Shown here one piece after another: positions 10,190-30,510 of a DNA stretch of 42,182 nt; position 1 is the stretch's first letter, and each line of letters begins with the position of its first letter. A program made the translations under genes and the position numbers. The notes under the pieces were generated by a model. That model was given only the letters and a program-made list of their open reading frames with translations. It ran no database searches and had not been told where the DNA came from. The DNA is from a virus: positions 1-42,182 of IMG/VR virus record IMGVR_UViG_3300046557_000504; one strand, given 5' to 3'.

Positions 10190-12354
10190 TGAGCCAAACA
10201 CCACCGCCGACCATCGCGCCGGCGCCGGCGCCCATCCAGCGCGGCGACCGCAGCACGTTCAGCGACCGGCTCGATGCCTTCGTCCTGTGGCTGACCAATG
10301 CCGTGACCTCATTCGGCAACGTCGCGACCAACGCGTATAACAATGCGCTCGACTGCTACAACAACGCCGTGGCTGCGGCGAGCTCGGCCAGCACCGCATC
10401 GGCCGCGGCCGGCACCGCCACCCAGACCGCCAATGCGACGCTGTGGGTCAGCGGCACCGCCTACGTCGTCGGCAACAACGCGATCAGCCCGCTCACCTTT
10501 CAGACCTTCCGCCGCAAGATCGCTGGAGCGGGCACCACCGATCCCAGCATCGACGTGACAAACTGGGCCCCGATCATCACGACCCCGACCTCCACCGTGG
10601 CCAACCCGCAGACCAGTGCCACCGATGTGACGCTGGCCAGCACGGCTGCCGGCGTGCAGGCGATCGCGATGACGGCGCCTGGGAAATCGGTTCTCCTGCC
10701 CAGCGCCACCAGCATGGGGTCTGTGGGCGGCCCGCTGTTCGTGATCCGCAACAACGGAGCCTATCCTTTCGGCGTGCGCGACAATACCGGGGTGCTGCTG
10801 GTGGCCGTCGCCGCTGGCGGCAGCGCCTACCTGACGCTCGAGAGCAAGGCGAGCGCTGCGGGCACCTGGGGCATCACCGGCACTGGCCTGGAGCCGGGCC
10901 TGGTCACGCTCGACCAGACCCTGTCCACCACCTACGGCAGTACGGTCTATGCGCAATCTGTCGCGCTCGACGCCAACACGTCGCTGCACTTTGCCGCGTT
11001 GTCATCCGGTTTTGCGGCCTTCGTCGTGGACAACACTGGCAAGGCCATCGGCACGCCGGTGACGGTATCGGCCGCTGCCGGTAGTGCCCCGCGTGCCGCG
11101 TTCAAGATTAGTGCGACCCAAGCCATCCTGTTCTACGGGGCCAGCGCGACGGATCACCAGGCGGTGGTGCTGACGCTCTCGGGCGCATCGCCATCGCTTG
11201 CACTGGCAGTCGGTACGCCTGCCGCGCTGACCGCTACTGCGCAGTCGTCGTGGGACGAGAACGGCACCGGCGCACCGAAGATCGCGCAACTCTCACCATC
11301 TCTCTATGTGGCCAGCTACACCAGCGGAGCCCCCGGCAATGCGATGGCTGTTGCGATCTCGGTGTCAGGCGCGAGCGTGAGCATCGGCGCTCCGATCACG
11401 GCTATCACTGGTAATTTCGCCGCGCCCTTGAGCACTACATATGCCCTGACAGCAACGACAGCGCTGGTGATCGGAAGGGCGAGCTCAGATACGAGATACT
11501 GGGCCGTGGTCGTCACGGTCAGCGGCACCAACTGCGCTCCGGGGACGGCAGTGACGACGGGCCTTGCTGGCGGCACTACAATGCCGCCTAGTAGTGTGCT
11601 GGTTTCACCAACTAAGTGCATCCTCGCCTCGGATGGTGGCACTACCTCCCTGTCCGCAGTCGCAGTGACGATCAACGGCACAAGTGTGGCAGCGGGCGCG
11701 CTGTTGGCCGTGGATACGTTGGCAACCGGTTCATCGGCCGATTACACCAGCGGCGGCTCAACGCGCTTCAATCCTCACCTGTGGACGGTTTCTGCTGGCT
11801 CGACTAACCTCATCGGTCTGTGGGCGCTTGACCGCGCTGCGATCCTGAGTGAGACCGGCGGCGTCTTGACCAAGGGCGGCACCCTCTATGGTAGCTTTTC
11901 CAGCGCGGCGTCCGGTGCCTCCGGTTACGGTGTGGTTTCTGCGCTGCAGGGCGCAACTGACTTCGTCGCCATCACCCAGCACGGCGCGGCGGGCGCATGG
12001 CGCAAGATCGCCGTCCCGCACAAGATCAACGGCACCACGATCACCTACGGCAACGGCCATGCGCTGCCCGAGCTGTCGCCGGTCGTCCAGGCCGACGCGG
12101 TGCCGAGCGTGCGCCTGGCGCAGGGCGACTACCTGCTGTTCAGCCCGAACGCCTCGTCCTTGCCGGTGCTGCGCTCGAACGGGGATGCGCTGGCGCGCCG
12201 CGGCGCGGTCTCGCTGCCCAACCTTGGCGGCCCCACGACCTGCCCGCTGGCGGCAGTCTCGTCCAACCGACTGCTGCTGGCGGCGACCACCGCGGGATCA
12301 GCGGCAAGCGGTGCCCAACAACTGCGTATCCTGAATATCGAGGTGGCCGCTTGA
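10189..12354 (+). CDS. tail fibre / receptor-binding candidate with propeller-like repeats
   Basis: The product has 721 residues; its start overlaps the previous stop. After a Pro-rich head and an Ala-rich helical segment (NNAVAAASSASTASAAAGTA) comes a second CBM5/12-like module (LWVSGTAYVVGNNAISP). From about residue 300 there are four to five blades of the type hydrophobic-x-V-x-V-S-G-x-x-x-x-x-G-T (HQAVVLTLSGASPSLALAVG; MAVAISVSGASVSIGAPI; YWAVVVTVSGTNCAPGTAV; LSAVAVTINGTSVAAGALLA), as in beta-propeller-like phage fibres. It is the best candidate for host recognition. Parts of its gene (11300-11900) use codons less strictly than the surrounding head genes, as often seen in fibre genes. Confidence 0.65.
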   Translation: MSQTPPPTIAPAPAPIQRGDRSTFSDRLDAFVLWLTNAVTSFGNVATNAYNNALDCYNNAVAAASSASTASAAAGTATQTANATLWVSGTAYVVGNNAISPLTFQTFRRKIAGAGTTDPSIDVTNWAPIITTPTSTVANPQTSATDVTLASTAAGVQAIAMTAPGKSVLLPSATSMGSVGGPLFVIRNNGAYPFGVRDNTGVLLVAVAAGGSAYLTLESKASAAGTWGITGTGLEPGLVTLDQTLSTTYGSTVYAQSVALDANTSLHFAALSSGFAAFVVDNTGKAIGTPVTVSAAAGSAPRAAFKISATQAILFYGASATDHQAVVLTLSGASPSLALAVGTPAALTATAQSSWDENGTGAPKIAQLSPSLYVASYTSGAPGNAMAVAISVSGASVSIGAPITAITGNFAAPLSTTYALTATTALVIGRASSDTRYWAVVVTVSGTNCAPGTAVTTGLAGGTTMPPSSVLVSPTKCILASDGGTTSLSAVAVTINGTSVAAGALLAVDTLATGSSADYTSGGSTRFNPHLWTVSAGSTNLIGLWALDRAAILSETGGVLTKGGTLYGSFSSAASGASGYGVVSALQGATDFVAITQHGAAGAWRKIAVPHKINGTTITYGNGHALPELSPVVQADAVPSVRLAQGDYLLFSPNASSLPVLRSNGDALARRGAVSLPNLGGPTTCPLAAVSSNRLLLAATTAGSAASGAQQLRILNIEVAA

Positions 12355-13375: not shown

Positions 13376-13437
13376 AAACGCACTTTAGTGGGCAGCCGAT
13401 CCCGCTGTCCTCCGTCCCGTGGAGACCCGACCGACGC

Positions 13438-13845
13438 ATGCAACACCTCACGATGAAAGCACAAATGAGCGAACCGATATCTGGCGCAGCCGCCGGCGCC
13501 GTGGGCTGGAAACTCATCGGAGGCGCGGCTGGCGTCGGCGCGATCGGGGCCGGCCTGGCCGCGGTGGTGGTGATGTGCGCGATGACCCCGCGCAGCGCCA
13601 AGGAATGGACCACCGGGATCATCTCGACCGTGATGGCCTCGATCGGCGGCGGCGCGGCCGTGATCCAGCATTTCGAGCTGCAGGCGTGGGCCCAGTCGCC
13701 GTTCGGCCTGATGGCGATGCTGGCCCTGGTGTTTGCCTGCGGCCTGCCCGGCTGGGCGCTGGTGCGCTGGCTGTTCAACTACATTGCCAAGCGCAAGGAC
13801 AGCGACCTGGCCGACGTCGTCGAGGAAGTGAGGGGTGCGCTGTGA
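13438..13845 (+). CDS. holin-like membrane protein
   Basis: The product has 135 residues counted from the first ATG; ATGs at 13453 and 13465 are also in frame. Three hydrophobic segments: GWKLIGGAAGVGAIGAGLAA onward, GIISTVMASIGGGAAV, and LMAMLALVFACGLPGWALV. The C-terminal tail is charged (KRKDSDLADVVEEVRG). Position directly before the endolysin and topology support a holin. The choice of start is uncertain: GGAG at 13421-13424 is rather far from 13438, and GAAAG at 13455-13459 would serve 13465. Use of two starts, giving a holin and an inhibitor, is possible but not shown. Its stop overlaps the endolysin start (GTGA). Confidence 0.7.
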   Translation: MQHLTMKAQMSEPISGAAAGAVGWKLIGGAAGVGAIGAGLAAVVVMCAMTPRSAKEWTTGIISTVMASIGGGAAVIQHFELQAWAQSPFGLMAMLALVFACGLPGWALVRWLFNYIAKRKDSDLADVVEEVRGAL

Positions 13846-14492
13846 ACCGCGCGCAGCTGCTGGCGATCGAGCCGGGCGCGTCCAAACAGGCCGACCAGTT
13901 CCTGGCGCCGCTGAATGCGGCCATGGAGCGCTTCGGCATCGACAGCCCGGCGCGCCAGGCCGCGTTCGTCGCCCAGCTGCTGCACGAGTCGCGCAGCTTG
14001 ACGGCGATGGAGGAAAGCTTCAACTACAGCCCGGGCAACCTGACGGCCACCTTCAACACGGCTACGGCGCAACGCTTCACCCCCGAGCTGGCCGGGCAGT
14101 ATGGCCGCACCGCGCAGCGCCCGGCCAACCAGACGATGATTGCCAATACCGCCTACGCGAACCGGATGGGCAACGGCACGATCGAGTCCGGCGACGGCTG
14201 GCGCTACCGTGGCCGCGGGCCCGGGCAGCTGACCGGAAAGGATAACTACACGCGCTGCGGCGCGGCGCTGGGCCTGGACCTGGTCAACCATCCCGACCTG
14301 GTGGCGCAGCCGGAAACGGGCTGCCTCGCGTTCGCCTGGTTCTGGGCGCAGGGCAACCCGGCCGGCATCAACCTGAACCTGCTGGCCGACGCCGGCAAGA
14401 TCGAACTGCTCAGCCGGGCCGTCAATGGCGGCCCCAACGGGCTGGCCCAGCGCGTGGCACTGACCCAGCGCGCGCTGCAGGTGCTGGCTTGA
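13842..14492 (+). CDS. endolysin, GH19 chitinase-like family
   Basis: The product has 216 residues with a GTG start at 13842 after GAGGGG at 13830-13835. The segment AFVAQLLHESRSLTAMEESF carries the candidate catalytic E49, followed by FNYSPGNL and later GWRYRGRGPGQLTGKDNY, the hallmark blocks of phage GH19-type muramidases/endochitinase-like lysins. There is no signal peptide, so it depends on the holin for access to peptidoglycan. It lies in a holin-endolysin-Rz-Rz1 cassette with 4-base overlaps on both sides. Confidence 0.85.
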   Translation: MNRAQLLAIEPGASKQADQFLAPLNAAMERFGIDSPARQAAFVAQLLHESRSLTAMEESFNYSPGNLTATFNTATAQRFTPELAGQYGRTAQRPANQTMIANTAYANRMGNGTIESGDGWRYRGRGPGQLTGKDNYTRCGAALGLDLVNHPDLVAQPETGCLAFAWFWAQGNPAGINLNLLADAGKIELLSRAVNGGPNGLAQRVALTQRALQVLA

Positions 14493-15195: not shown

Positions 15196-15984
15196 ATGGC
15201 AATACCTATCATTCCCTGGATGGGCGGCAAGCGCCGCCTCGCTGATCACCTGATCCCGCAGTTCCCGCCTCACAAGTGCTACGTCGAGGTGTTCGCGGGC
15301 GGCGCGGCGCTGTACTTCATGCGCCCACCGGCCGAGGTCGAGGTGATCAACGACATCAATGGTGAGCTGGTCCGACTATATCGGGTGGTTCAGAACCACC
15401 TCGAGGAGTTTGTGCGACACTTTAAGTTCGCCTTGTCGAGCAGGGAAGTGTTCAAGTGGCACCAGATCACGCCACCCGATACCCTGACCGACATTCAGCG
15501 CGCGGTCCGGTTTTTCTATCTGCAGCAGCAGGCATTTGGTGGCAAGGTCGATGGGCAAAACTGGGGGACCGCCACGACCACCCCGCCGGTGAATTTGCTG
15601 CGCATCGAGGAAAACCTCTCGGCCGCCCACTTGCGCCTGGCTGGTACGTACATCGAAAACATGGACTGGTACAAGCTTATCGAGCGCTACGATCGTCCCC
15701 ACACCCTGTTTTACCTCGACCCGCCGTATTGGGAGACCGAAGGCTATGGGGTCGATTTTGGCATGGCGGAGTATGAAAAGATGGCCGAGTTGATGGCCAG
15801 GATACAGGGCAAGGCGATCGTGAGCCTGAACGACCATCCAGCCATCCGTAGGATTTTCGCCGCGTTCCAGATGGATACGGTCCCGATCTCGTATATCGTC
15901 GGCGGCCCTGGAAAGACGGTCGATCGATCCGAGGTGATCATCTACAGTTGGGACCGTTCGGAGGATCCGGTAGGGCTCTTTTAG
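15196..15984 (+). CDS. orphan N6-adenine DNA methylase (D12/Dam class)
   Basis: The product has 262 residues. Motif X/I region: PWMGGKRRL near residues 7-15, the SAM-binding block YVEVFAGGAALYF at residues 29-41, and catalytic DPPY at residues 175-178. This order places it in the alpha-class (D12) N6-adenine methyltransferases. No restriction endonuclease gene is adjacent, so it is most likely protective, masking phage DNA from host restriction, or regulatory. The ribosome site AAAAGG at 15183-15188 lies 7 bases from the ATG. Its base composition is a little more AT-rich than the preceding lysis genes, which hints at separate acquisition. Target sequence unknown. Confidence 0.85.
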   Translation: MAIPIIPWMGGKRRLADHLIPQFPPHKCYVEVFAGGAALYFMRPPAEVEVINDINGELVRLYRVVQNHLEEFVRHFKFALSSREVFKWHQITPPDTLTDIQRAVRFFYLQQQAFGGKVDGQNWGTATTTPPVNLLRIEENLSAAHLRLAGTYIENMDWYKLIERYDRPHTLFYLDPPYWETEGYGVDFGMAEYEKMAELMARIQGKAIVSLNDHPAIRRIFAAFQMDTVPISYIVGGPGKTVDRSEVIIYSWDRSEDPVGLF

Positions 15985-16003: not shown

Positions 16004-16480
16004 CTATTTGAGCGGCCAGAACCAGACCTCGGTGGACCACCAGTAGCAGTCCTCCTCGCACGCCAGCTGGTTGATCGTGTCGGGCGCCACCAGGTCGATA
16101 TGGCCCTGGCGGTCGGTCGCGCCCCACAGGTGGTAGAAGCTGATCACGCCGCGCCTGCCGTCGATCCCCTGCGCGGCCGCCGGGCCGCCGGGGTACTTTT
16201 CCGGCGCGCCCCACGCGCGCACCAGGAAGCGCGCCACGTTGGCCTGTCCCGGTTCCAGGACCAGGCCCTTGCATTCGCCGGCGGCCACCCGCAGCCGCGC
16301 CGGCATGATGTGCACGCCGCACCGCACCAGCGCCAGGCTCATCCGGATCCCGCAGGTGTTTTCCCAGCCCGGCGTCGTGTACAGGGCCGCATGCCCGATC
16401 CAGCGATACAGTTCCTCGGTCGTCACCGACCTCCGGTCCGGGTACTTGCTGCGCAACAGCGCGTACGGCGGCTTATGCAT
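16004..16480 (-). CDS. tae4: T6SS amidase effector Tae4
   Basis: The product has 158 residues starting at the ATG at 16480, 8 bases inside the immunity gene. The Tae4 signature is clear: active-site Cys C43 in WENTCGIRMSLALVRCG, catalytic His H127 in RQGHIDLVAPD, and the C-x3-C pair C141/C145 (LACEEDCYWW) that forms a regulatory disulphide in known Tae4 enzymes. Family function: cleavage of the gamma-D-Glu-mDAP bond of peptidoglycan stem peptides in the periplasm of rival Gram-negative cells. No signal peptide is present, as expected for Hcp/T6SS delivery. An upstream in-frame extension to 16585 exists but looks non-native. Confidence 0.88.
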   Translation of the reverse strand: MHKPPYALLRSKYPDRRSVTTEELYRWIGHAALYTTPGWENTCGIRMSLALVRCGVHIMPARLRVAAGECKGLVLEPGQANVARFLVRAWGAPEKYPGGPAAAQGIDGRRGVISFYHLWGATDRQGHIDLVAPDTINQLACEEDCYWWSTEVWFWPLK

Positions 16481-16841
16481 GGCAGCACCCGCTGCCCGCG
16501 CACGGCCAGGCATGGCGCCAAGCCGCGAGCGCGATCGCGCCAGCGCTGCCAGCGGCCAGCGCCGGGGGCGCCGTTTCGATAGCATCGGTGACGGCCGCCT
16601 GCAGCGCCGCGCTGCTGGGCCGGGTGCGGCTGTAGCACCAGTCGCGGTCGGCCGTGGCGTCGACCACGCCCTGCAGGTAGGACACCGCCTGCGCCGCCTC
16701 GGCCGGGCTGCGCAGCTGGTGCAGCAGCTGGGCGCCGGTGCGCCACGGCGGCGCGGGCGGGGCGGGCGGGGCGGCGGACACCGGCAGCGTCAGGGCCAGC
16801 AGCAGGGCCGGCAGCAGGGCCGGCAGCAGCGGCGCGCCCAT
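16473..16841 (-). CDS. Rap1a/Tai-type periplasmic immunity protein for Tae4
   Basis: The product has 122 residues; its start shares the adenine of the hcp stop (TGATG). A signal peptide (LLPALLPALLLALTLPVSA) precedes a helical Rap1a-like domain: GAQLLHQLRSPAEAAQAVSY, LQGVVDATADRDWCYS, and AALAAWRHAWPC-like end (ALAAWRHAWPC), with the two conserved Cys. Tai4/Rap1a proteins sit in the periplasm and plug the Tae4 active site. A location between hcp and tae4, coupled on both sides, supports the pairing. The first Cys of the canonical family (after GxxLL) is absent here (HQL), so it is a divergent member. Confidence 0.78.
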   Translation of the reverse strand: MGAPLLPALLPALLLALTLPVSAAPPAPPAPPWRTGAQLLHQLRSPAEAAQAVSYLQGVVDATADRDWCYSRTRPSSAALQAAVTDAIETAPPALAAGSAGAIALAAWRHAWPCAGSGCCHA

Positions 16842-21487: not shown

Positions 21488-22392
21488 CACACACCTCCTT
21501 CGCTTGCAGCAGCCTCGGGTGCAGCGGTAGATGCCTTGACCAGTTGGCCGGTCAACTCATGGTAGCGCTGCAGGAACATCCGCTTGGCCAGCGCCGGCGA
21601 CATCGGGAAGATCCGGGTCGACAGCGGCTCGACCCCGGCGCTGACGACCAGCGCTGCCGGCGCCGCCTGCAGGTCGCGCCGCTCGGTGGCCAGCAGCACC
21701 TGGTCGGCGCGCTTGACCGACGCCGGCAGGGTGGCCGGCAGGCCGAAGCGTGCGAACACCTCCGCCTCGACCCGGCGCTCGATCACCGCATAGTCCGGCA
21801 GCAGCCGCTTGAGCGGCTTCGGGACGTCCTTCAGGAACGCCTCGGCCGCGTCGTGCAGCAGGCCCGCCAGTGCGTCCGCAGGCGGCACGATCTGGCTCAC
21901 CAGCAGCGAGTGCTGGGCGACCGAGTAGAAATGCTGCACGTGGCCACCGAAGCGGCACTCGTTGGCCAGGGCATGGGCGATGTCCTCGATGTCGAACACG
22001 CACTTTTCCGGCGCCGCGAAGCTGAAGAAGTGGCCGGACTTCGTCAGGATCGCGTGCTCGTACTGCTCGCTGGCCAGCACAGTGAGCGCGTCCGGCGCCA
22101 GCTGCGCGACGATGCCCGAGCACAGGTCGGGGTGCGACTGGGCGGCAGCGATGGCCACCTCGCCGAGGCCCGCGAGCGCCTGCTCGTCGTAGCTGGCCGG
22201 GGTGGTCCGGCCGATGGGTTGCATGATTTGCATGGCAGGTTCTCCGGTTGGTTCGCTGATGGTCGCTGCCACCTGGTCGAGATGGGCCAGCACCGCGCGG
22301 CGGTACTGGCCCAGGGTCTGGTGCTCGGCGGCGTGCCCGTCGTTCTCGACCAGGCTGCGCACCGACCCGAGTGCCGCTTGAGCGTTAGCCAT
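21487..22392 (-). CDS. HD-domain phosphohydrolase (YfbR/5'-nucleotidase-like)
   Basis: The product has 301 residues. The HD core is in the second half: [20 protein letters not shown] with QHSLLVSQ supplying an upstream His, and [20 protein letters not shown] giving the H-D pair and later acidic residues. This spacing is that of phage HD hydrolases related to YfbR, which act on deoxynucleoside monophosphates. The N-terminal about 90 residues are helical and unassigned. It follows the PRTRC genes in one operon; a nucleotide-metabolism role during early lytic growth is the likely one. Confidence 0.75.
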
Positions 22393-23114
22393 TACGCCAC
22401 CTCGCGCAAGGCGTGCTGGGCCGGGGCGGCCGGCGGGCGCGTGGTCTCGTTGAAGCTACCCATGTCGAGGCCGTGCAGCAGGTAGTCGCGGAACGCCTCG
22501 AGCCCGCCGTCCTGGATCTCGTACATCACCGCCCGGTAGAACAGGTCGGTGTGGCGCGGCGGTACCTCGAGCACGAACAGGCGCCGGTCGGTCTCGAGCA
22601 CGGGAAGGAATTCGGTCGAGGTCGACAGGAACACGAAATTCATGCGGTTGTCGATGGTGCGGTCGCGCCTGCCCTTGGTGGTGATCGGCACCGACACGGC
22701 GCTGATCAGGCTTTTCAGGCGCGTGGCGTTCTTCTTCGAGAACGTGCCGTCCACCACCACCAGGCCGGCGCCATCGGCCCAGCGGGTGAACACGTCGTGC
22801 AGCTGCCTGGCATTGATCACGCGCGCGCTGTCGTCGCGGTACAGGCCGGCAGCCACATGGTGGAAGAACACGCTCTTGCCGGTGCCGCCTTCGCCGTTGA
22901 CCACGATCCCCATCGCCATCTTGGCGCCCGGATTGCGCAGCGGGTAGGCCAGCCAGCACATCACCCAGTGGCAGGCCGCCTCGTCGTAATCGCACAGGTG
23001 CAGCAGCAAGGTCTGGATGTTGTGGAAGCTGACCGGCCGGTGGTGGTCGCGGCCGAGGAAGGCGCTGGCGATGGTGGCGCGCAGCAGCCGGAGGTTGCGA
23101 AGCAGTCGTTTCAT
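22392..23114 (-). CDS. P-loop ATPase, SF3-helicase/DUF5906-like
   Basis: The product has 240 residues from the ATG at 23114 (AGGAG in front). Walker A is GEGGTGKS at residues 74-81 ([20 protein letters not shown]). Walker B-like is [13 protein letters not shown], and a sensor-like NFVFLSTS follows. These blocks match DUF5906/primase C-terminal SF3-type ATPases. It is much shorter than usual primase-helicases and lacks a primase domain. The phage has a full primase-helicase at 31852, so this is either an accessory helicase or a partner of the PRTRC genes, with which it is adjacent and co-directional. Confidence 0.7.
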
Positions 23115-23142
23115 GGGAATCTCCTGGGTTTGGCGAAAGGCG

Positions 23143-23952
23143 TCACGCGGCAGCGCACACCCGCTCGTTGTCATCGGTGGAATTGGCGGCCGTGTCCGGC
23201 TGGGGCGGCGGTTCGCGCACGAGCAGCGGCCGCATGCTGCCCGTCTTCAGGTTGACGAAGGCGCCGTGCCAGGTCAGCTGCCCGTGGCGGAAGAACTCCC
23301 ACAGGATGGCCAGCGCCGGCGTCACGATCGACTGGTTGACGAACAATTCCTGGCGCTCGAGCGCCTCGGCCAGGCCGCAGCTCGGCGTGTCGTCCTCGGG
23401 CGCGCGCAGGTCGACCAGCTCCGGCAGGACCGTGTACGGGCTCGGGAGCCTGACGCTGCCGGCCGGCGCGACCAGCTGGCGGATATCATCGTCGAGCCCG
23501 AGCTCGCCGAAGATTACCTGGCCGTCGGCCGCGCGGTTGCCCAGGTCCATCAGGTAACGGGCCCGCTGGCGGCCCAGGTGGTGCGCAATCTCGTAGCGTG
23601 CACGCGCGCTGTCCACGCACGCGATCGCGATTTTTGGGCAGTGGCCGTCCTCTTCATAGCGGCCATAGAACGCCTCCCAGTTCAGCCCGAAGAAGGCGTT
23701 GATGCGGTTGACCAGGACGTGCGCCTTGCTCGAGCCGACGTCGAAACTGCCGAACAGCTGGCGGCCCATGTTGGCCTCGCTGACCGTGTCGGGGTCGTAC
23801 ACGCGCACTTCCAGGCCGGGGTGCCCGAGCGCCGTGATCGCGTGGTTCAGGCGCGCGAGGCCGGTCAGCATCTGCGAGCCGTTGCCGCCGCAGCCGATCA
23901 GCGCGATCTCGACGGGCCGCTGCAGCAGTGAGGGAGGAGTGATATGTGGCAT
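23143..23952 (-). CDS. PRTRC system ThiF-family protein (E1-like)
   Basis: The product has 269 residues. The Rossmann nucleotide-binding start is IALIGCGGNGSQ (G20, G22, G25). The E1 acidic/Arg block is VYDPDTVSEANMGRQLF (D53, D55, N61, R64, Q65). CVDSARARYEIAHHL follows, and C192 in TPSCGLAEALERQELFVNQ is the candidate catalytic cysteine. In E1-like enzymes these residues adenylate the C-terminus of a ubiquitin-like protein and then take it as a thioester. It follows PRTRC A by 7 bases. The order A then ThiF is the standard end of PRTRC cassettes. Confidence 0.9.
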   Translation of the reverse strand: MPHITPPSLLQRPVEIALIGCGGNGSQMLTGLARLNHAITALGHPGLEVRVYDPDTVSEANMGRQLFGSFDVGSSKAHVLVNRINAFFGLNWEAFYGRYEEDGHCPKIAIACVDSARARYEIAHHLGRQRARYLMDLGNRAADGQVIFGELGLDDDIRQLVAPAGSVRLPSPYTVLPELVDLRAPEDDTPSCGLAEALERQELFVNQSIVTPALAILWEFFRHGQLTWHGAFVNLKTGSMRPLLVREPPPQPDTAANSTDDNERVCAAA

Positions 23953-23959
23953 CGCCCGC

Positions 23960-24715
23960 TCACCCGAAGATCTTCTCGGCCGGCACGTTGATCGGGATGT
24001 ACAGCCCGAGCACGCACAGGCGGAACGCCACCGTCGGTACCGGCTGGTCGAGGTTGCCAAAGACACCGGCGATCTTGACGCTGCCGGCATCGTCGCGGTT
24101 ATCGGTGTCGCTGAAGAACGCCGGCAGCTGGCCATGGCTGTGCAGGTCGAAGGCGTACGACAACGGGCCATCGACCCTGAGCGCCGGCAGTTCGTAGCGT
24201 AGCGATGAAGGCGTGCTGTCCTGTACCGTGACCGACACGTAGATCAGTTCCTTCAGTTCGGCGTCCCACGCCAGCGCGCAGGCCGTCTCGTTGGGCGCCT
24301 CTGCTCGGGCATGCTCGGCAAATTTGCGGAACAGGTCGAGTGCGTCGCCGAGGCGGCCGAACGCCAGGTCGGTGCGCGGTTCAATGTGCCCGTATGGCAT
24401 GGCGACCGCGTTTTGCTCGGCCAGCCGGCGGATGACATGCAGCCACGGCCGCCGCACCTCGAGGTACAGGCCATCGTCCGCCAGCAGGAAGCGGTGGCCG
24501 CTGTCCTGCAGCGGGAAGAACTCGCTGTGGCGCGGTACCGCCGCGACCGGTGCGGCGGCAAACTGGGCCAGGTCCAGCTGCAGCTTGTCCGGATCGATGT
24601 TTTCCTCGTCGAGCGCGATCGGCATCGGCCGCTGGGTGCGCAGGGCGGCGTCGGTGGCGGCGACGAACTGCTCGAACGCTGCACGCTGCAGCTCCAGCAG
24701 TTGGTCGAATTTCAT
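23960..24715 (-). CDS. PRTRC system protein A (JAMM/JAB peptidase-like)
   Basis: The product has 251 residues from the ATG at 24715 with AGGAG 6 bases upstream; an earlier ATG at 24736 lacks one. A complete JAMM motif is present: H192-S-H194, seven residues, S202-x-x-D205 (DLHSHGQLPAFFSDTDNRDD). That motif is the zinc site of MPN+ deubiquitinases. The C-terminal VPTVAFRLCVLGLYIPINVP is typical of PRTRC A. Expected role: removal or maturation of a ubiquitin-like protein. The intact motif suggests an active enzyme. Confidence 0.87.
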   Translation of the reverse strand: MKFDQLLELQRAAFEQFVAATDAALRTQRPMPIALDEENIDPDKLQLDLAQFAAAPVAAVPRHSEFFPLQDSGHRFLLADDGLYLEVRRPWLHVIRRLAEQNAVAMPYGHIEPRTDLAFGRLGDALDLFRKFAEHARAEAPNETACALAWDAELKELIYVSVTVQDSTPSSLRYELPALRVDGPLSYAFDLHSHGQLPAFFSDTDNRDDAGSVKIAGVFGNLDQPVPTVAFRLCVLGLYIPINVPAEKIFG

Positions 24716-24748
24716 GGTGATCTCCTGGCCGTTCATATGGATCCTTTG

Positions 24749-25492
24749 TTAGCGTTGTTTTTGGGATGCCGCCGCGATCCGCGCGATCGCTGCCTGCAGG
24801 GTTTCATCGGACGTGACCAAAGCGCGGCGCGTCGCCTCCGGGTTGGGGTGCGCGAGCTGGTCGCGCCAAAGCTGTTTCATGCCGCCCTTGTACTTGACCG
24901 CCTTCTTCCGGTTGGGGTGGGTGAAGTGGCTGCGGAAGAACGCCTCCTCGTAGCGGGTGATGGCAGCTGCGTCGACCGCCGCCGGCAGATCGACATTGCC
25001 GGTGCAGATGCGGCCGCCATCCCACACGTTGAAATGGGGCGAGTGGCACAGGCGGGTGCCCGGCGCCGGCCGCTCGTCCTTGCGCAGCGCGAACACGTAC
25101 CAGTCGTCCGGCACGGCGACGAACACCAGTGGCGGATGCGCCGCCGCGCCGTGGCCGGTCAGTAAGGCTGGGTCGTTCGATTTGAACCAGGTGGTGCGGA
25201 TGGCTGCCGGCGTCCACCAGGCGATCAGGTTGGGCGACGTGTACAGCAGGTTGGCCGGCAGGAAGCCCGAAAACGCGGTGGCCGTGCTGACCGCCTGGGC
25301 GAACGCGGCCAAGCCGGTTTTCGTCAGCGGCACGCCGGCGCCGATGATCTTGCGGTGCGGCTGGTCGGCGTCGAGGTTGATCGGGTGGGTCGTCGCGTAG
25401 ACATGGCCGTCTCTGGACTGGTACAGCAACAGCGCGCTGACCAGGTCAAGCGTGGTTTCGCCGGCGCTGAGGATGTTGACGAGATGCGTCAT
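24749..25492 (-). CDS. PRTRC system protein B (prokaryotic E2-like)
   Basis: The product has 247 residues. The E2-like C-terminal core contains LCHSPHFNVWDGGRICTGN with candidate catalytic C163, the W-x-x-G-x-x-C-x-G pattern of the Prok-E2_D family, which PRTRC B belongs to. Upstream, PLVFVAVPDDWYVFALRKDE forms the beta sheet. Start overlaps the stop of protein F by ATGA. In the cassette it is expected to accept a ubiquitin-like protein from the ThiF protein. E2-type chemistry in this subfamily is predicted, not proven. Confidence 0.87.
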   Translation of the reverse strand: MTHLVNILSAGETTLDLVSALLLYQSRDGHVYATTHPINLDADQPHRKIIGAGVPLTKTGLAAFAQAVSTATAFSGFLPANLLYTSPNLIAWWTPAAIRTTWFKSNDPALLTGHGAAAHPPLVFVAVPDDWYVFALRKDERPAPGTRLCHSPHFNVWDGGRICTGNVDLPAAVDAAAITRYEEAFFRSHFTHPNRKKAVKYKGGMKQLWRDQLAHPNPEATRRALVTSDETLQAAIARIAAASQKQR

Positions 25493-26556
25493 ATGGGGTC
25501 TCCGATGAGTAGCACCAGCTTTTCGGTCAGGACGGCGAGCTGCATCATCTGGCGGGTCTTTAGCTGGAAGTCGCGCACGCCCTCGGCCGTCATCGGGACC
25601 GGGTTGGCATCGATGAACTCGGAGTACTCCCCACTTTCACCGAACATGTTGAGCGCCTCGTCGATGACCTGGCCGATGGCGTCGTTTTCCTTCCAGAGCA
25701 ATACCATCGACCCATCCACTGAATCGAGGCCGCAGCGGTGCACGCCCTTGTCTTCCGAGCGCAAGACGAAGTCGGGGCGGTTGACCAGTTCGGCGATGGC
25801 ATCGCAAGCGGCGACCACGCTTTTCCCAAATCCCTCGCGCGCAGCGCGCACAATTTGCTCTCTCGACGCGACTCGTTCGGGGCGGGTCACCCAGCGGGGC
25901 ATGTCTGCATAGAAGGCGGCGCGCGTGATCACAACGTCGTTGTCGAGCACTTCCTGCACCGTCGCGTAGCCGTTCATGTTGCGGTGATTCTCGAGCAGCT
26001 CCTCGTCCGTTTCCGAGTCATCCCAGTGCAGCCATTGCACCAGGTCTTGCGCCAGCCAGGGGTTGAGCGAATCGGGCAGCAGCAGCGTCGCGTCGTACAG
26101 GACCGCCAGCACCGTTTGCCCGAAGCCTTCCAGCACCGCCTCGAGCTGCTCGGTGCGCCGCGCCAGCGAGAAGCGGGGTATAAGGCCCCCCCGCGAGTAG
26201 CGCGTGAAGCAGAACCAGGCCGTGGTCGCGTCGTCGTAGTTGTGACCGGTGCCGATCAGCTGCTGAACGTGCAGATGCCAGCGGAAAAACGCGCACGAAT
26301 GCCGCTTGATCAGGCCTGCCCACCAGCGCGACAGCGCCACCATCGACATTTCGCGCTCGTCCGGCTCGCCCAGCACCTCGACCAGCGTGGCATTCGGGCC
26401 CGGCCTGAGCATGGCGTCGGTGATCACGCCGGCCTCGAGCAACGCGATCGCCAATGGCACGGCGAGCGCGTTTTCGCCCGGGATGTGCAGCTCGAGCGGG
26501 ATCGATGGCGCCAGGTGCGGCAGCGCCATGGCGCCCAGTTGCGGATAGCCGATCAT
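25489..26556 (-). CDS. PRTRC system protein F
   Basis: The product has 355 residues, with LGAMALPHLAPSIPLELHIP near the N-terminus and SRWWAGLIKRHSCAFFRWHL in the middle, both as in PRTRC F. It is mainly helical, with no recognised catalytic motif. Its function is unknown; the constant linkage to B suggests a partner or substrate-recruiting role. It starts inside the stop of the small upstream gene (ATGA) and ends inside the start of B, so all three are translationally coupled. Confidence 0.8.
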   Translation of the reverse strand: MIGYPQLGAMALPHLAPSIPLELHIPGENALAVPLAIALLEAGVITDAMLRPGPNATLVEVLGEPDEREMSMVALSRWWAGLIKRHSCAFFRWHLHVQQLIGTGHNYDDATTAWFCFTRYSRGGLIPRFSLARRTEQLEAVLEGFGQTVLAVLYDATLLLPDSLNPWLAQDLVQWLHWDDSETDEELLENHRNMNGYATVQEVLDNDVVITRAAFYADMPRWVTRPERVASREQIVRAAREGFGKSVVAACDAIAELVNRPDFVLRSEDKGVHRCGLDSVDGSMVLLWKENDAIGQVIDEALNMFGESGEYSEFIDANPVPMTAEGVRDFQLKTRQMMQLAVLTEKLVLLIGDPI

Positions 26557-26753
26557 GGCAGCACCAGGTGGTTGACGGACGGCGCCAGGCAGCGCGCGGC
26601 GGTAGCGGCCCGGTTGGCTGCGACGATACGCGCCACGGCGAGCGCGACCGGGTCCCTGGCCTGCTCGCTGGTGACGGCGGTCCGCGAGCGCGCGCTGGTC
26701 GACAGCGTGCCCGTGGTGCGCAGGCGCTGCAGGGCGGTTTCACGGGTCAGCAT
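26553..26753 (-). CDS. small protein between PRTRC C and F
   Basis: The product has 66 residues from the ATG at 26753, one base after the stop of protein C (TGACATG). MLTRETALQRLRTTGTLSTS followed by an Ala-rich helix (DPVALAVARIVAANRAATAA). The first 20 residues look like a short amphipathic helix. A TTG at 26762 is an alternative start. No family was recognised. Tight coupling on both sides indicates a real gene of the cassette. Confidence 0.5.
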   Translation of the reverse strand: MLTRETALQRLRTTGTLSTSARSRTAVTSEQARDPVALAVARIVAANRAATAARCLAPSVNHLVLP

Positions 26754-26754
26754 G

Positions 26755-27258
26755 TCAGGCAACCTGCGCTTCGCAGTACTCGTGGTGCAGCTCGGCCAGG
26801 CGCTCGCGGGAGGCTGCGGAAACAGCGCACGGGCCGACGTCGCGCAGCGCCTCGTCCACGTCCTTGACGAACTGGGCGTCGCCCGCCAGCAGCCAGTTCG
26901 CCCCGAGCGTGGCCACCAGGTCGCCGGCCAGCTTTGGCAGCTCGGCGTCGGATGGCGCCGGCGTCGTCATCAACGCGACGAAGCGACGGTTGCCGAGCTC
27001 CGGCGCCAGGCAGAAGGCGGAGCCACTCACGAAGACGTAGTTGGCAAAGCGCGCGCCGCCCTTGGTGCCGACCGCCCGGCGGAAGGTGTACACGACCTTG
27101 GCGCCCAGCTGCTCGGGGCCCTCGATGTCGGCGCTGACGATCTCGGGGTACACGTTGGCGTAGAAGTCGCGCACCTGGGTCAGCGTGAAGCCGCTGTTCG
27201 GGTCGGCCAGCACCACGCCGTTGTAGCGGAACTCGCGTGTCAGTTGGTTGATGTCCAT
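26755..27258 (-). CDS. PRTRC system protein C (ubiquitin-like) with C-terminal extension
   Basis: The product has 167 residues with GGAG before the ATG at 27258. Residues 1-67 match PRTRC C, the Prok_Ub beta-grasp family: REFRYNGVVLADP, TLTQVRDFYANVYPEIVSAD, IEGPEQLGAKVVYTFRRAVG, ending T-K-G67-G68. Typical members are about 70 residues and end near G-T-K-G. Here about 99 more residues follow the Gly pair (ARFANYVFVSGSAFCLAPEL onward, helical at the end). The extension could be a separate domain, or a peptide removed by the JAMM protein to expose a Gly C-terminus. The first part is family knowledge; processing is inferred. Confidence 0.82.
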   Translation of the reverse strand: MDINQLTREFRYNGVVLADPNSGFTLTQVRDFYANVYPEIVSADIEGPEQLGAKVVYTFRRAVGTKGGARFANYVFVSGSAFCLAPELGNRRFVALMTTPAPSDAELPKLAGDLVATLGANWLLAGDAQFVKDVDEALRDVGPCAVSAASRERLAELHHEYCEAQVA

Positions 27259-27269
27259 GGTGGCTCCGG

Positions 27270-28043
27270 TCAGAAAAGATCGAGGGCGAAGGCATCGCCG
27301 GCGGCTTCGGTGGCGCCCGGCACGGGTTCGCCAGCCGGCGCGCTGGCCGCGGTCTCGTCAGCGGCTGCGGCAGGTGCAGCGATTGGCTGCAGCGCGACCG
27401 CTGCCTCGGGCGATTCAGGCGCCTGCGTGGCGCCCGGCTCGTTGCTGGCCGTCCCTTCGGCGAATTGGGCATCGCCTGGCGCCGCCATGGCGTCAGTTCC
27501 GGCGTCAGTTCCGGCGTCGGGCGCGGCCTGTGCGGTGCCGAGCACGGCCGTGTCGTTGGCTTGCGGCAGCGCGACATCCGGCGCATTGGCCATCAGGGCG
27601 CCATCGGTCAGTGCGGCGCCAGCAACGGCCGCGGTGTCGTCGGTGGCAGCAGCTTCGCCGGGCGCGGCTGCAACCGCGGCGGCGGCGGTATCGGCGGCGG
27701 CACTGCGGGTCGCTGCCTTGGCTGCTGGCTTCTTCTGGCTTGGCGCCCGGGCCTTCGCACCGCCCGAGGTGGCGCCGGTCTCCTTGTCGTCATCGGTGGC
27801 CGCGTCGCGGGCCTGGTCGAGCAGCGAACGCTTGGGCGCCTGCCAGATGGCGGCCGCCTCGGCGAAGTCGGCGTCGAGCTCCTCGGGGCTGCCCACCAGC
27901 GACAGCGGGCGCAGCTCGTGCGCCTTGGTCTTGTCGTTGGTCTGGACCGGCGTGATGTTCACGCGCAGCAGCTCGGGGCCTTCGGCGGTGATCACGATCA
28001 TCAGCGTCGCACGTTGGGCGAGCGCGTGAAGAGGTTTGAACAT
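27270..28043 (-). CDS. PRTRC system protein E
   Basis: The product has 257 residues; AAGGGAG stands 5 bases before the ATG. The conserved part is N-terminal: MFKPLHALAQRATLMIVITA, LLRVNITPVQ, LRPLSLVGSPEELDADFAEA, as in PRTRC E. From about residue 85 to the end the protein is a long Ala/Asp/Pro/Thr-rich, probably disordered tail (many GAP-, AAD- and ATD-like steps). Function is unknown. It is the first PRTRC gene in the operon. Confidence 0.78.
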   Translation of the reverse strand: MFKPLHALAQRATLMIVITAEGPELLRVNITPVQTNDKTKAHELRPLSLVGSPEELDADFAEAAAIWQAPKRSLLDQARDAATDDDKETGATSGGAKARAPSQKKPAAKAATRSAAADTAAAAVAAAPGEAAATDDTAAVAGAALTDGALMANAPDVALPQANDTAVLGTAQAAPDAGTDAGTDAMAAPGDAQFAEGTASNEPGATQAPESPEAAVALQPIAAPAAAADETAASAPAGEPVPGATEAAGDAFALDLF

Positions 28044-28085
28044 GAGACTCCCTTTTATTATGAAAATCGGCTGTTGCCGGTGGCG

Positions 28086-28274
28086 TCAGTCGATGTCGTT
28101 TGCTTGCAGCTTCTTCACATCGGCCCGTTCCCGGCGCTGCATGTGCCGGCGGGCGACCGCCTCGAGAACGATCCTGAGGCTGGGGTCTTTCAGCATCTCC
28201 TCCAGCGGCGCCGTCGTGCGCAGCCGCAGGTGGGCGACTTCGAGCGCGGCGCGGTCTGGCTGGATGCGCGGCAT
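28086..28274 (-). CDS. small basic helical protein
   Basis: The product has 62 residues: MPRIQPDRAALEVAHLRLRT, PLEEMLKDPSLRIVLEAVAR and a basic end (RRHMQRRERADVKKLQ). GAGG precedes the ATG, 3 bases after the stop of the gene upstream. Predicted helical hairpin. No family recognised; similar small ORFs precede PRTRC genes in mobile elements. Confidence 0.55.
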   Translation of the reverse strand: MPRIQPDRAALEVAHLRLRTTAPLEEMLKDPSLRIVLEAVARRHMQRRERADVKKLQANDID

Positions 28275-28277
28275 GGC

Positions 28278-28865
28278 CTACCTCGCCAGCTCCGGCGCCA
28301 GCGCTGGCTGGACCAGTGCGTCCAGCTCCTGCCGCACCCGCTCGTTGTCGAAAAGGCGCATGAACGCGTGGTTCTCGCGCCACACGCCATCGCTGCGTTC
28401 GTATGCGACCGAGTGGTCGACGGTGAAACCGCCGTTAACGATGCGATCGACGACTGCTGTGATCGCATCGAGCATGTGATAAATCGGCGGCGGCAGCTGT
28501 TCGCTGAAAATGTCAGCGACCGCCTTCGCCGCTGCGGCCACCCGGAAGATCTTCGGCAGCCAGCTGCGCAACACTTGCGCCATCCCTGGCTCGAGGTCGA
28601 GGGTGAAGCCCTTGCGTAGGAATGGCACCAGGCTGTCGGCCGAAAAGCACTCCAGGCGCGTGTCGTGCACGCTGATATCGCCCGGGGCGAACTCCAGGCG
28701 TTCGTCACCCGACACCATGCACCCCCGGGCAAACCCCGTTATTTCCGCGCCCGCGATCACGTCCACGTGGATCGTCCCTTCGGCGCGGGGATGCACGCGC
28801 AGGCCGATCTGCTGGCCCACGATGTGGATCCCGTTCCATTCCCGGCACACAGTTGGCATGAGCAT
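28278..28865 (-). CDS. hypothetical protein of the leftward early operon
   Basis: The product has 195 residues from the ATG at 28865, with GAGG about 6 bases upstream. An ATG at 28859 is also in frame. The N-terminal half is beta-rich (GIHIVGQQIGLRVHPRAEGT; RLEFAPGDISVHDTRLECFS) and the C-terminal half helical (VVDRIVNGGFTVDHSVAYER; RLFDNERVRQELDALVQPAL). Not recognised. Its place between the small leader gene and PRTRC E makes it a member of the same transcript. Confidence 0.6.
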   Translation of the reverse strand: MLMPTVCREWNGIHIVGQQIGLRVHPRAEGTIHVDVIAGAEITGFARGCMVSGDERLEFAPGDISVHDTRLECFSADSLVPFLRKGFTLDLEPGMAQVLRSWLPKIFRVAAAAKAVADIFSEQLPPPIYHMLDAITAVVDRIVNGGFTVDHSVAYERSDGVWRENHAFMRLFDNERVRQELDALVQPALAPELAR

Positions 28866-28872
28866 GGTCGCC

Positions 28873-29019
28873 TCAAGCGGTGGGGTGAACGGTGATCCCG
28901 CACGGCGCGGGGGCACACGTGTCAACCGCGTCGAGCGCGGCCTGGGCGCTGGAACTGGCCAGGGCCGTGTAAGTGATGCAGGCGCTGGCGGTGCGAACGG
29001 TAATCAGATATGGCTTCAT
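28873..29019 (-). CDS. 48-residue conserved small protein, first gene of the leftward operon
   Basis: Sequence starts MKPYLITVRTASACITYTAL and contains ALASSSAQAALDAVDTC. AGGAGAG stands close to the ATG. It is too small for a fold assignment, but the Y-L-I-T-V-R beta start and Ala-rich helix recur in small proteins at the head of phage and plasmid early operons. It lies about 30 bases after the predicted leftward start point. Confidence 0.6.
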   Translation of the reverse strand: MKPYLITVRTASACITYTALASSSAQAALDAVDTCAPAPCGITVHPTA

Positions 29020-29054
29020 GTGCTCTCCTGCCGCGTTTCCTGCGGGCGTAAGGC

Positions 29055-29107
29055 ACTTTACCAAAAAGATAAATTTCAGGTCAAGCTTTATTTACCAAAA
29101 AGATTAA
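29055..29107 (-). promoter_or_regulatory. leftward early promoter with two operators (OL-like)
   Basis: Read on the minus strand: -35 TTGACC (29084-29079), 18-base spacer, -10 TAAAGT (29060-29055). Two copies of an 18-base operator flank it: CTTTACCAAAAAGATAAA at 29056-29073 overlapping the -10, and ATTTACCAAAAAGATTAA at 29090-29107 upstream of the -35. The same motif occurs at the rightward promoter (30529-30597). Repressor binding here would silence the whole PRTRC operon. Confidence 0.7.
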
Positions 29108-29182
29108 TTCGCGTCGCGTGGGGCGGCGCCAGGTCGCGGTGGACCATGGGAAGCGGGCCATCAGGGACCGTGCAGGCAAAAG

Positions 29183-29205
29183 AAAACCCGCGCACGGCGG
29201 GTTTT
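29183..29205. terminator. bidirectional intrinsic terminator
   Basis: A 9-bp stem (29183-29191 with 29197-29205), core CCCGC/GCGGG, loop GCACG. T-runs follow on both strands (T at 29202-29208 on plus; TTTTCTTTT on minus). It lies just after the zinc-ribbon gene (minus strand) and isolates it from the leftward early operon. Confidence 0.75.
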
Positions 29206-29230
29206 TTTGGGGGGGAGGGCGGGATCCGGG

Positions 29231-29533
29231 CTAGCCGTTGCGCCACCAGGCGCCCAGGCGCGCCGCCAGGTACACCAGCACGCCCAGGCCCAGCAGCGGC
29301 GCGCCGCGGTCGACCGCGCCGGCACCGCCGTTGCTGGAGCGGCCCGCGAACAGCACCAGGAAGCCGAGCCCGATCAGGGCCAGGCCGAGCAGCTGGCCGC
29401 CCTTGAATCGCTTCGAGGTCTGCTCGATCGTGCGCGGGGCCTGTTCAACGGCAAACGGGTGGCCGCACTGCGGGCAGGTGCGCGCCAGCTTTGACACGCC
29501 ATGTTCGCAACTCGGGCATTGCATTAACGCCAT
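29231..29533 (-). CDS. zinc-ribbon membrane protein
   Basis: The product has 100 residues from the ATG at 29533 with AGGGAG upstream. A zinc ribbon (CPSCEHGVSKLARTCPQCG) is followed by two transmembrane segments (GQLLGLALIGLGFLVLFAG and PLLGLGVLVYLAARLGAWW). The combination is common in small cell-envelope proteins encoded by lysogenic regions. Location between the repressor side and OL means it may be expressed in the lysogen, perhaps to alter the host envelope. Function unknown. Confidence 0.65.
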   Translation of the reverse strand: MALMQCPSCEHGVSKLARTCPQCGHPFAVEQAPRTIEQTSKRFKGGQLLGLALIGLGFLVLFAGRSSNGGAGAVDRGAPLLGLGVLVYLAARLGAWWRNG

Positions 29534-29571
29534 CCTGATCTCCCTGGTGTGGGCAACTGGCGCCCGGCCGA

Positions 29572-29796
29572 CTACAACTTGTCGAGCACGGCGCGCAGCA
29601 TCGCCTTGATTTCCACGTTCTGCTGCTTGATTTCCTCGAGCTGGGCCATGTGCAGCCGCGCCAGTATTTCGGCGTTCATCGAGCGGCCGTTCCTGAGCGC
29701 GGCGTCCTGCAGTTCGTCGCGCAGCGCCTCGGGCAGCCGGACGGCCGTTTTCACATAGTTGCGCTGCTTGGTTTCTTGCGCGGGCGGTATCCTCAT
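29572..29796 (-). CDS. Arc-family ribbon-helix-helix regulator
   Basis: The product has 74 residues. The beta strand VKTAVRLPEALRDELQDAAL followed by NGRSMNAEILARL is the Arc-type RHH pattern, in which the strand inserts in the major groove. The C-terminal half (HMAQLEEIKQQNVEIKAMLR) is a coiled coil for tetramer formation. It is divergent from the small gene at 29977. The palindrome CGTAGGA-CGTT-TCCTACG (29922-29939) and a CGTAGG half-site (29812-29817) in the shared upstream region are candidate operators. Confidence 0.8.
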   Translation of the reverse strand: MRIPPAQETKQRNYVKTAVRLPEALRDELQDAALRNGRSMNAEILARLHMAQLEEIKQQNVEIKAMLRAVLDKL

Positions 29797-29976
29797 CGCC
29801 CGATTTTTTCACGTAGGCCTATATTAGCGGAAACTTTGCCTTCAAACTGAAAGCACTCTTTGATAGTTTTGTTACTTTTCGTTCTAGATATAGGAGCGAA
29901 ACACCGGTCTGTTCTGGAATTCGTAGGACGTTTCCTACGGGCTATATTGTACTGACTTCACGGTTATTAGGCATCT
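29797..29976. promoter_or_regulatory. divergent promoter region with CGTAGG palindromes
   Basis: AT-rich gap of 180 bases between the Arc-like gene (left) and the small gene at 29977 (right). It contains TAGGCCTA (29814-29821), part of CGTAGG at 29812, and the 18-base palindrome at 29922-29939. A -10-like TATATT at 29943-29948 follows the palindrome directly. A protein bound at the palindrome would block or modulate this rightward promoter. Confidence 0.5.
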
Positions 29977-30165
29977 ATGAAAGACAACGAACGCCAGCTG
30001 CTCGAAGATTTCCGGAAATTGGACGATCAGTCGCAACAAGAAATGACTTCCATCATGCACGACCTCGCGGCGGAACAGGACTTCGTGCGGCGCCCCGGGT
30101 TACGACTGGTCCACAGCGCCGAGCGGCCGCTCTTGCCGCTCAAGGTTTCTCAGCATCAGCCTTAA
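29977..30165 (+). CDS. small conserved protein convergent with the repressor
   Basis: The product has 62 residues: MKDNERQLLEDFRKLDDQSQ and QEMTSIMHDLAAEQDFVRRP. The F-R-x-L-x-x-x-x-Q-x-E-x-x-x-I-M-H-D helix pattern recurs in small phage-repressor-linked proteins. The last 66 bases overlap the 3' end of the repressor gene on the other strand, so the two transcripts are antisense there. Function unknown; it may bind or tune a regulator. Confidence 0.5.
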   Translation: MKDNERQLLEDFRKLDDQSQQEMTSIMHDLAAEQDFVRRPGLRLVHSAERPLLPLKVSQHQP

Positions 30166-30510
30166 GGTCTTCTTGCTGCGCTCGGTCAGTGCCCGGAACT
30201 CGGCCAGGTGCTCGGCCTCCTGCCGGTTCAGCCAGTGCAGCTGGAACTCCGCTTCGCGCGCCGGGCTGGCCGGCTCCACGCTTGGCCTGGCTTCCTCCTC
30301 GACCGGCAGGTCGAGTGCGCCGGCCGGCAGCGCGAACGCCTCTTCGATCCGGCGCGCGATGATGTTGCCGATATTCTTCTTCGGCGTCTTCCCGATCAGC
30401 TGACTCACCTGCGAATTGTCCATGCCGGTCTTCCGGCCGAACTCGGCCGGGCCGCCAGCGCTCTGCGCCAGGGCGCGCGCATTCTCTCGTCGTAAGTCTT
30501 CTCGCTTCAT
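30100..30510 (-). CDS. phage repressor, HTH type without peptidase domain
   Basis: The product has 136 residues from the ATG at 30510; a TTG at 30537 would add 9. The helix-turn-helix is NARALAQSAGGPAEFGRKTG, MDNSQVSQLIGKTPKKNIGN, IIARRIEEAFALPAGALDLP, the usual lambdoid repressor N-domain. The C-terminal part (RQEAEHLAEFRALTERSKKT) is a coiled-coil-like helix. No S24 LexA-like autocleavage domain is present, so induction must work by other means than RecA-stimulated self-cleavage. Position between OL and OR supports a CI role. Confidence 0.75.
   Translation of the reverse strand: MKREDLRRENARALAQSAGGPAEFGRKTGMDNSQVSQLIGKTPKKNIGNIIARRIEEAFALPAGALDLPVEEEARPSVEPASPAREAEFQLHWLNRQEAEHLAEFRALTERSKKTLRLMLRNLERQERPLGAVDQS

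Follow-up and report, generated by a model that had tools for sequence, protein, structure and literature searches.

A PRTRC-type ubiquitin-like conjugation cassette in the leftward early region of a temperate lambdoid phage

What use might a temperate phage have for a set of ubiquitin-like conjugation proteins? The question is raised by a seven-gene cassette at positions 23143-28043 of IMGVR_UViG_3300046557_000504. This record is an entire IMG/VR virus entry of 42,182 bases, metagenomic in origin, and was analysed at full length (hereafter, the window). The cassette is of the PRTRC type, a system described mainly from plasmids that is also a common phage module. The best explanation, and one we favour with some reserve, is that it represents a phage-specific form of PRTRC ubiquitin-like conjugation, encoded in the leftward early operon and possibly aimed at replication-fork proteins. 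The precursor form of its ubiquitin-like protein (Ubl), the small protein S with its Ubl-S fusions, the C-terminal motif of protein E and the wide spread of the cassette as a phage lineage are all new with respect to the original prediction made from this DNA. The case for a function is built from sequence.

The window encodes a terminase, portal, major head protein, tail terminator, tape measure, integrase, CII and primase-helicase. The head-protease gene is split by the ends of the record, and joining the end to the start gives a single frame of 467 codons. Since this frame continues through the join, the genome is effectively complete. By gene content, therefore, the record is a complete temperate lambdoid phage. 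The structural genes, CII, the integrase and the 467-codon join agree with the earlier description of the carrier as an otherwise complete lambda-like phage.

The cassette genes overlap, or almost do so, on the minus strand. Their order, E-C-small(S)-F-B-A-ThiF, is the one originally proposed. A search against family models had been suggested as a check. All six named proteins hit the expected families, above the curated NCBIfam cut-offs. Pfam agreed, with matches to ThiF, Prok-JAB plus DUF2016 (A), Prok-E2_D (B), alpha-hel2 (F) and Prok_Ub (C). The start of ThiF was corrected to 23952 from 24171. The features are listed below, with NCBIfam cut-offs in brackets.

27270-28043, minus strand: PRTRC protein E, with a folded N-terminal domain (residues ~1-66) and a long disordered Ala/Pro/acidic tail; TIGR03741, 60.9 bits (37.95)
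27273-27287, minus strand: ALDLF, the C-terminal motif of E
26755-27258, minus strand: PRTRC protein C, a ubiquitin-like precursor of 167 residues with an AlphaFold2 model; TIGR03738, 97.0 bits (45.95); Prok_Ub PF14454, 84.6 bits
27058-27069, minus strand: GTKG, residues 64-67 of C, the predicted C-terminus of the mature Ubl and processing point
26758-27057, minus strand: 'type II' C-terminal extension of the Ubl, a flexible linker and then a three-helix bundle (residues 107-163)
26553-26762, minus strand: S, a small phage-specific protein ending HLVLP; the real start is probably the ATG at 26753
25489-26556, minus strand: PRTRC protein F (alpha-hel2); TIGR03742, 76.8 bits (58.4); PF14456
24749-25492, minus strand: PRTRC protein B, E2-like, with the Cys163 codon at 25004-25006; TIGR03737, 209.0 bits (131.45); PF14460, 145 bits
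23960-24736, minus strand: PRTRC protein A, DUF2016 plus JAMM protease, with the motif at 24101-24142; TIGR03735, 201.2 bits (101.8); PF09436 and PF14464
23143-23952, minus strand: PRTRC ThiF, E1-like, with the Cys192 codon at 23377-23379; TIGR03736, 305.6 bits (144.75)

The E1 motifs, candidate E2 cysteine and JAMM motif picked out in the original prediction were all found in place and conserved in relatives. Thus, ThiF has G20xGGxGS, D53xD, R64-Q65 and C192, protein B has C163 and protein A has H199xH201x7S209x2D212. These residues are invariant in six-member alignments (the window, one phage and four plasmid relatives), except for variable residues between G23 and S26 of ThiF. We also compared 155 distinct cassettes, 110 with a JAMM protein and 45 without. 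The E1 Cys is kept in 155/155, as is the E2 Cys. The JAMM motif is kept in 109 of the 110 cassettes that could have it, and the exception has Thr for Ser. Among solved structures, sequence searches found no relative of the PRTRC E2 and only marginal ones of protein A. The features expected of ubiquitin-like conjugation are present: E1 ATP-binding motifs and Cys, E2 Cys, a Ubl terminal Gly, whose exposure needs a predicted cleavage, and the JAMM motif. Judged by these motifs, the record encodes a full E1/E2/Ubl/JAMM set and the conjugation core is complete.

The biochemistry that we consider likely on these grounds is as follows. Protein A would cut C after GTKG, ThiF would activate the newly exposed terminal glycine, and B would hold the Ubl as a thioester and transfer it to proteins. 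Protein A may, in addition, remove the tag from targets. A different chemistry could be drawn from the E1 family being shared with ThiF and MoeB, and from the PAPS-reductase-family genes that lie beside some plasmid cassettes. Here, C would be a sulphur carrier, its terminal glycine being converted to a thiocarboxylate by ThiF, as in ThiF-ThiS. However, such chemistry has no place for the invariant E2 Cys or the conserved E1 Cys, and no PAPS-reductase-family gene was recognised beside phage cassettes. We regard it as very improbable.

Protein C had been described simply as ubiquitin-like. The family assignment stands, but C is not a plain Ubl; it has a single Ubl domain and continues for 100 residues past GTKG. 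Within this tetrapeptide K66-G67 is invariant in the alignment. AlphaFold2 predicts a confident Ubl and a confident three-helix bundle, with a low-confidence linker between them that starts at GTKG. The assignment of the Ubl fold draws on the Prok_Ub match and the predicted bb-a-bb order. A profile of type II extensions, built with the window extension included, matches the extension of C.

The length of C depends on the company it keeps. In cassettes without a JAMM protein, C terminates exactly at KG (GTKG or a variant) in 45/45 cases. Conversely, in the 110 JAMM-bearing cassettes the number of residues after KG is 0 in 18, 1-9 in 10 and at least 10 in 82. Eukaryotic ubiquitin precursors are likewise matured, by other proteases. 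On the simplest reading, likely by analogy with BilC acting on BilA, maturation of the Ubl would be the work of A, which would cleave it just after GTKG. In the Bil system the JAMM protein BilC trims the Ubl precursor BilA, exposing a C-terminal glycine (PMC11354881). Two observations weigh against this reading. The JAMM protein changes just four times on the tree, so the link between JAMM and extension comprises few independent events; there are two supported pairs, and a sign test is not significant. Since 18 JAMM-bearing cassettes have no extension, processing cannot be the sole role of the JAMM protein. A point against the explanation as a whole is that the C model had no significant hit when its fold was searched for in the PDB and among viral models.

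The gene first recorded only as 'small' encodes S, a conserved protein of ~60-70 residues that ends [V/L]LP. S is present in 81 of 85 phage loci. It is a separate gene in 56, is fused in frame after the GTKG of the Ubl in 25, and occurs in both states in none; no open reading frame ending in LP was detected in the other four loci. Fused and separate S are homologous (E 1.8e-26), and the fused state has changed at least six times among phages on the tree. A precursor that is cut by a protease would permit the Ubl to join and part from one partner repeatedly in this way, at the very point of processing. In eukaryotes, ubiquitin-ribosomal protein fusion precursors are cut after the terminal glycine of ubiquitin. 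The likeness, an analogy and not homology, is of a Ubl in frame with a partner and the need for a cut after the terminal glycine. Here, in contrast, the partner is a small phage protein, and fusion and fission both occur inside one phage lineage. Taken together, the rule 'no JAMM, no extension' and the Ubl-S fusions predict one exact cleavage site. Profile hits found no S outside phage-like loci. In plasmid cassettes, C and F are ~90-110 bases apart in three cases, and 5 bases apart in one more.

Is the cassette truly part of a phage? The window is a metagenomic record, and an assembly artefact, in which part of a plasmid had been attached to a phage contig, could in principle produce it. We scanned IMG/VR with profiles and kept the best 80 of 252 stretches with a ThiF relative. 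By automatic profile hits, 67 of these 80 have the order E-C-S-F-B-A-ThiF and nine more have E-C-F-B-A-ThiF. A single-sequence scan of IMG/VR with B found no match, whereas alignment profiles did. A survey for the same order without ParB in other phages, also suggested at the outset, thus found it to be widespread, in ~80 phage contigs and prophages and in the isolated Burkholderia phage BgVeeders33 (OK665841). The ~80 related viruses and prophages examined share the kit, with the Ubl mostly in an uncut precursor form, and most carry it in an equivalent slot. BgVeeders33 has the seven genes in identical order at 25952-30438, with a ThiF that is 57% identical, a type II Ubl extension and a separate S. 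It differs from the window phage in its contractile tail and terminase type. Its cassette is annotated mostly as hypothetical, with ThiF as a dinucleotide-utilizing enzyme. A tree of ThiF plus B from 128 cassettes puts 67/67 phage cassettes on one side of one branch, with support of 89. This was a quick tree with no root inferred, and five of the 67 phage cassettes were taken from genome contigs that have phage markers close to the cassette. Base composition is even along the record. A chimeric contig was therefore rejected, on the many phage carriers, the isolated phage, the separate clade and the even composition; we put its probability as negligible.

The phages that carry the cassette have at least two terminase types and occur with or without a tail sheath. 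Because cassettes are found with different terminase types and tails, the early region moves between phage backbones.

How does the phage form relate to the PRTRC of plasmids, for which we counted 385 records with cassettes? Iyer et al. (2006) described an operon, type 6d, that encodes an E2-like protein, a Ubl whose last residue is a conserved glycine, and a JAB protein that has an N-terminal domain of its own (PMC1779556). We identify type 6d with the PRTRC plasmid operon (TIGR03734-TIGR03742). Both forms have homologous E, C, F, B, A and ThiF in equal order, a Ubl with a conserved terminal glycine and a protein combining JAB-N (DUF2016) with JAB. Unlike the plasmid form, the phage form adds S, usually extends the Ubl past GTKG, lies in a phage early operon and makes up its own clade. 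It also has neither ParB nor protein D, as the original prediction held. Family searches for PRTRC ParB (TIGR03734) found no match in the record and none over the cut-off in 47 phage records, compared with 3/3 plasmids. PRTRC D, which is ParM/StbA-like and often encoded away from the cassette, likewise had no match in the record and 0/47 phage records over the cut-off, while all three plasmids matched, one of them over the cut-off. Since both proteins are lacking, we call the cassette a PRTRC-like phage variant and not full PRTRC. In the literature searched, with subscription journals largely excluded, no description was found of PRTRC on phages, of extended Ubls or of fusions between Ubl and S. 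Nor was any function found there for the PRTRC components, which were recognised by 2006.

Some more distant loci were also seen. JAMM-less E-C-B-ThiF cassettes are common in Bacteroidota contigs. The human faecal phage records MT835919 (A-ThiF-B) and MT839883 (C-B-ThiF, with a Ubl ending TKG) contain unannotated PRTRC-like genes, and the JAMM-less Bacteroidota type may thus also be on phages. A divergent locus at 7718-10774 of IMGVR_UViG_3300034175_000127 has F, B and ThiF, with C, A and E not detected and weak generic ParB matches. In crAss001 (MH675552, 4250-6648), E1-like and JAB-like genes adjoin in a phage. Of these, gp76 is a strong ThiF protein and gp77 a weak Prok-JAB match; PRTRC B, C, E and F were not found in crAss001.

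The position of the cassette bears on when it acts. Of the 85 phage loci, 63 have a CI-type repressor upstream on the same strand, 41 have CII on the opposite strand, 40 have a DnaB helicase and 51 have an integrase close by. At least one of these markers is present in 80. In most loci, judged by these neighbours, the slot is the leftward early region, between the immunity (cI/cII) region and the integrase. The placing of the cassette in this region of a temperate phage therefore extends well beyond the window. From its position, the cassette is probably expressed early. The earlier interpretation is thus partly supported, for the set of parts and its place; action in the lytic cycle and the suggested purposes (takeover, counter-defence or exclusion of rival phages) are conjectural. 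Two further features adjoin it.

29055-29084, minus strand: candidate leftward promoter upstream of the operon, TTGACC-18-TAAAGT with an extended -10
22392-23174, minus strand: VapE/DUF5906 primase-helicase-like ATPase (PF19263, PF05272), overlapping ThiF by 32 nucleotides

The candidate promoter was the sole site found, against 1.1 expected by chance, and so is no better than chance. The run of genes from E through ThiF continues, overlapping or nearly touching, into genes for the VapE-like ATPase and a dNMP phosphatase. Because of this spacing, the cassette and these two genes are probably one transcription unit. The ATPase has no primase part, stands outside the conserved cassette and is common to only one other of the 85 phage loci.

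An early slot also bears on whether the cassette defends the lysogen. A prophage could use it for defence or superinfection exclusion in the manner of Bil, attaching the Ubl to one of the structural proteins of an invading phage, whose virions would thereby be spoiled. The four enzyme classes, Ubl, E1, E2 and JAMM, are shared with BilABCD, whose JAMM protein also trims a Ubl precursor. Related E1-E2 models exist in PADLOC, to which ThiF has weak, partial similarity, and defence genes are frequent in temperate phages. However, the leftward early operon is not a typical slot for prophage-expressed accessory genes, B, A, C, E, F and S match no PADLOC model, and on plasmids PRTRC is accompanied by genes for replication and partition. 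The systems also differ in their parts. BilA contains a pair of Ubl domains, and BilD a pair of adenylation domains (PMC11354881), and an ISG15-like defence system is listed with E2 family C (PMC10952713). The cassette has a single Ubl, an E2 of family D and, in addition, E, F and S, whereas Bil is carried as host defence. We find a defensive role unlikely.

The same slot adjoins the immunity region, a place in which phages carry genes directed against the host, and catalysis has been kept intact under selection. Hence, the phage might tag host defence or housekeeping proteins and so inactivate them, as counter-defence or takeover. No host target is pointed to, however, and the same core is present on plasmids and in chromosomes of Bacteroidota, where there is no phage life cycle for it to serve. 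This idea we judge unlikely, with the proviso that it overlaps the explanation we favour, conjugation possibly aimed at the replication fork, should the host replisome prove to be the target. If phages do use Ubl conjugation in their own lytic cycle, such tagging is not solely host defence. Phages also offer a compact system that can be induced, where loss of the catalytic residues could have a measurable effect on burst size, lysogeny or exclusion, so that function becomes testable.

What points to the replication fork is protein E. An AlphaFold2 model of residues 1-104 has a small folded domain, which is followed by a low-complexity disordered tail. The tail is unconserved apart from its last residues, of which LDLF is the commonest ending. 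The motif [hydrophobic][DEN][hydrophobic][F/Y/W/L/M] ends 41 of 49 non-redundant phage E tails; in shuffled tails the mean was 0.14 and the maximum 4. The sliding-clamp peptide consensus is QL(S/D)LF, in which the Gln matters most for binding (PMC11139829), and transposases of mobile elements bear a sliding-clamp peptide at their C-termini (PMC4549789). As a separate observation, E of the JAMM-less Bacteroidota cassettes retains a FAPSLF-like motif in several contigs.

PRTRC plasmids often have a sliding clamp of their own. One was found in 8/16 PRTRC plasmids compared with 1/10 PRTRC-free MobH plasmids (p 0.09). When only gamma-proteobacterial plasmids are considered, the counts are 8/9 and 1/10, respectively (p 0.001). 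In five PRTRC plasmids the clamp lies within ~10 kb of the ThiF gene or of the ParB-ThiF cassette. The plasmids with a dnaN-like clamp gene near the PRTRC cassette are:

NZ_CP116673
NZ_CP015879
NZ_CP143634
NZ_MF495478
NZ_CP032092

On the strength of the E-tail motif and the plasmid clamps, the replication fork is the best-supported guess for the site of action, and no more. We advance only tentatively, as a possibility, that the targets are replication-fork proteins of host or phage, with E as an adaptor. In this scheme E would dock its LDLF-like tail onto the host sliding clamp, and the phage would alter the replisome early in the lytic cycle. A number of results count against it. The E tail conserves the phi-x-[L/M]-[F/L] part of the clamp motif Q-phi-x-[L/M]-[F/L], but the Gln is missing. 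In several phage lineages the final residue or residues of the E tail are Y, W or PI. Comparison of the E model with folds in the PDB and with viral models brought no significant hit. A clamp was found in 0/7 alpha- and beta-proteobacterial PRTRC plasmids, and the clamp controls are few and unmatched by replicon type. The E terminus could otherwise mimic the tail of single-stranded DNA-binding protein; this is less likely, as some E relatives have residues beyond the motif.

Many lambdoid phages keep recombination genes at the slot taken by the cassette. Above the cut-off, 47 PRTRC phages had one YqaJ, no RecT and one ERF, a count made with no control phage set and with Rad52-like families not searched, which limits its weight for the scheme. 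It suggests, with that lack of a control set, that the cassette occupies the place where recombination genes often are. The fullest version of the scheme is that, in temperate phages of Burkholderiales, a JAMM-matured Ubl, made as a precursor or as Ubl-S, is steered to the clamp by E and modifies the early replisome, replacing phage recombination functions. In all its parts together we think this rather doubtful. If true, PCNA ubiquitination would have a counterpart in bacteria, and a viral one.

The closest chromosomal relatives are in genomes of Burkholderiaceae, Massilia, Janthinobacterium and Duganella, and Oxalobacteraceae are one likely family for the host. Elsewhere in the window, positions 15196-15984 (plus strand) encode a DNA methyltransferase near a type II family, with no nuclease partner evident. 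Positions 16004-16585 (minus strand) encode a Tae4-like amidase (PF14113, a family of type VI secretion system amidase effectors), possibly a phage lysis or cell-wall enzyme. The product of 13419-14492 (plus strand) belongs to glycoside hydrolase family 19 (chitinase-like) and is probably the endolysin.

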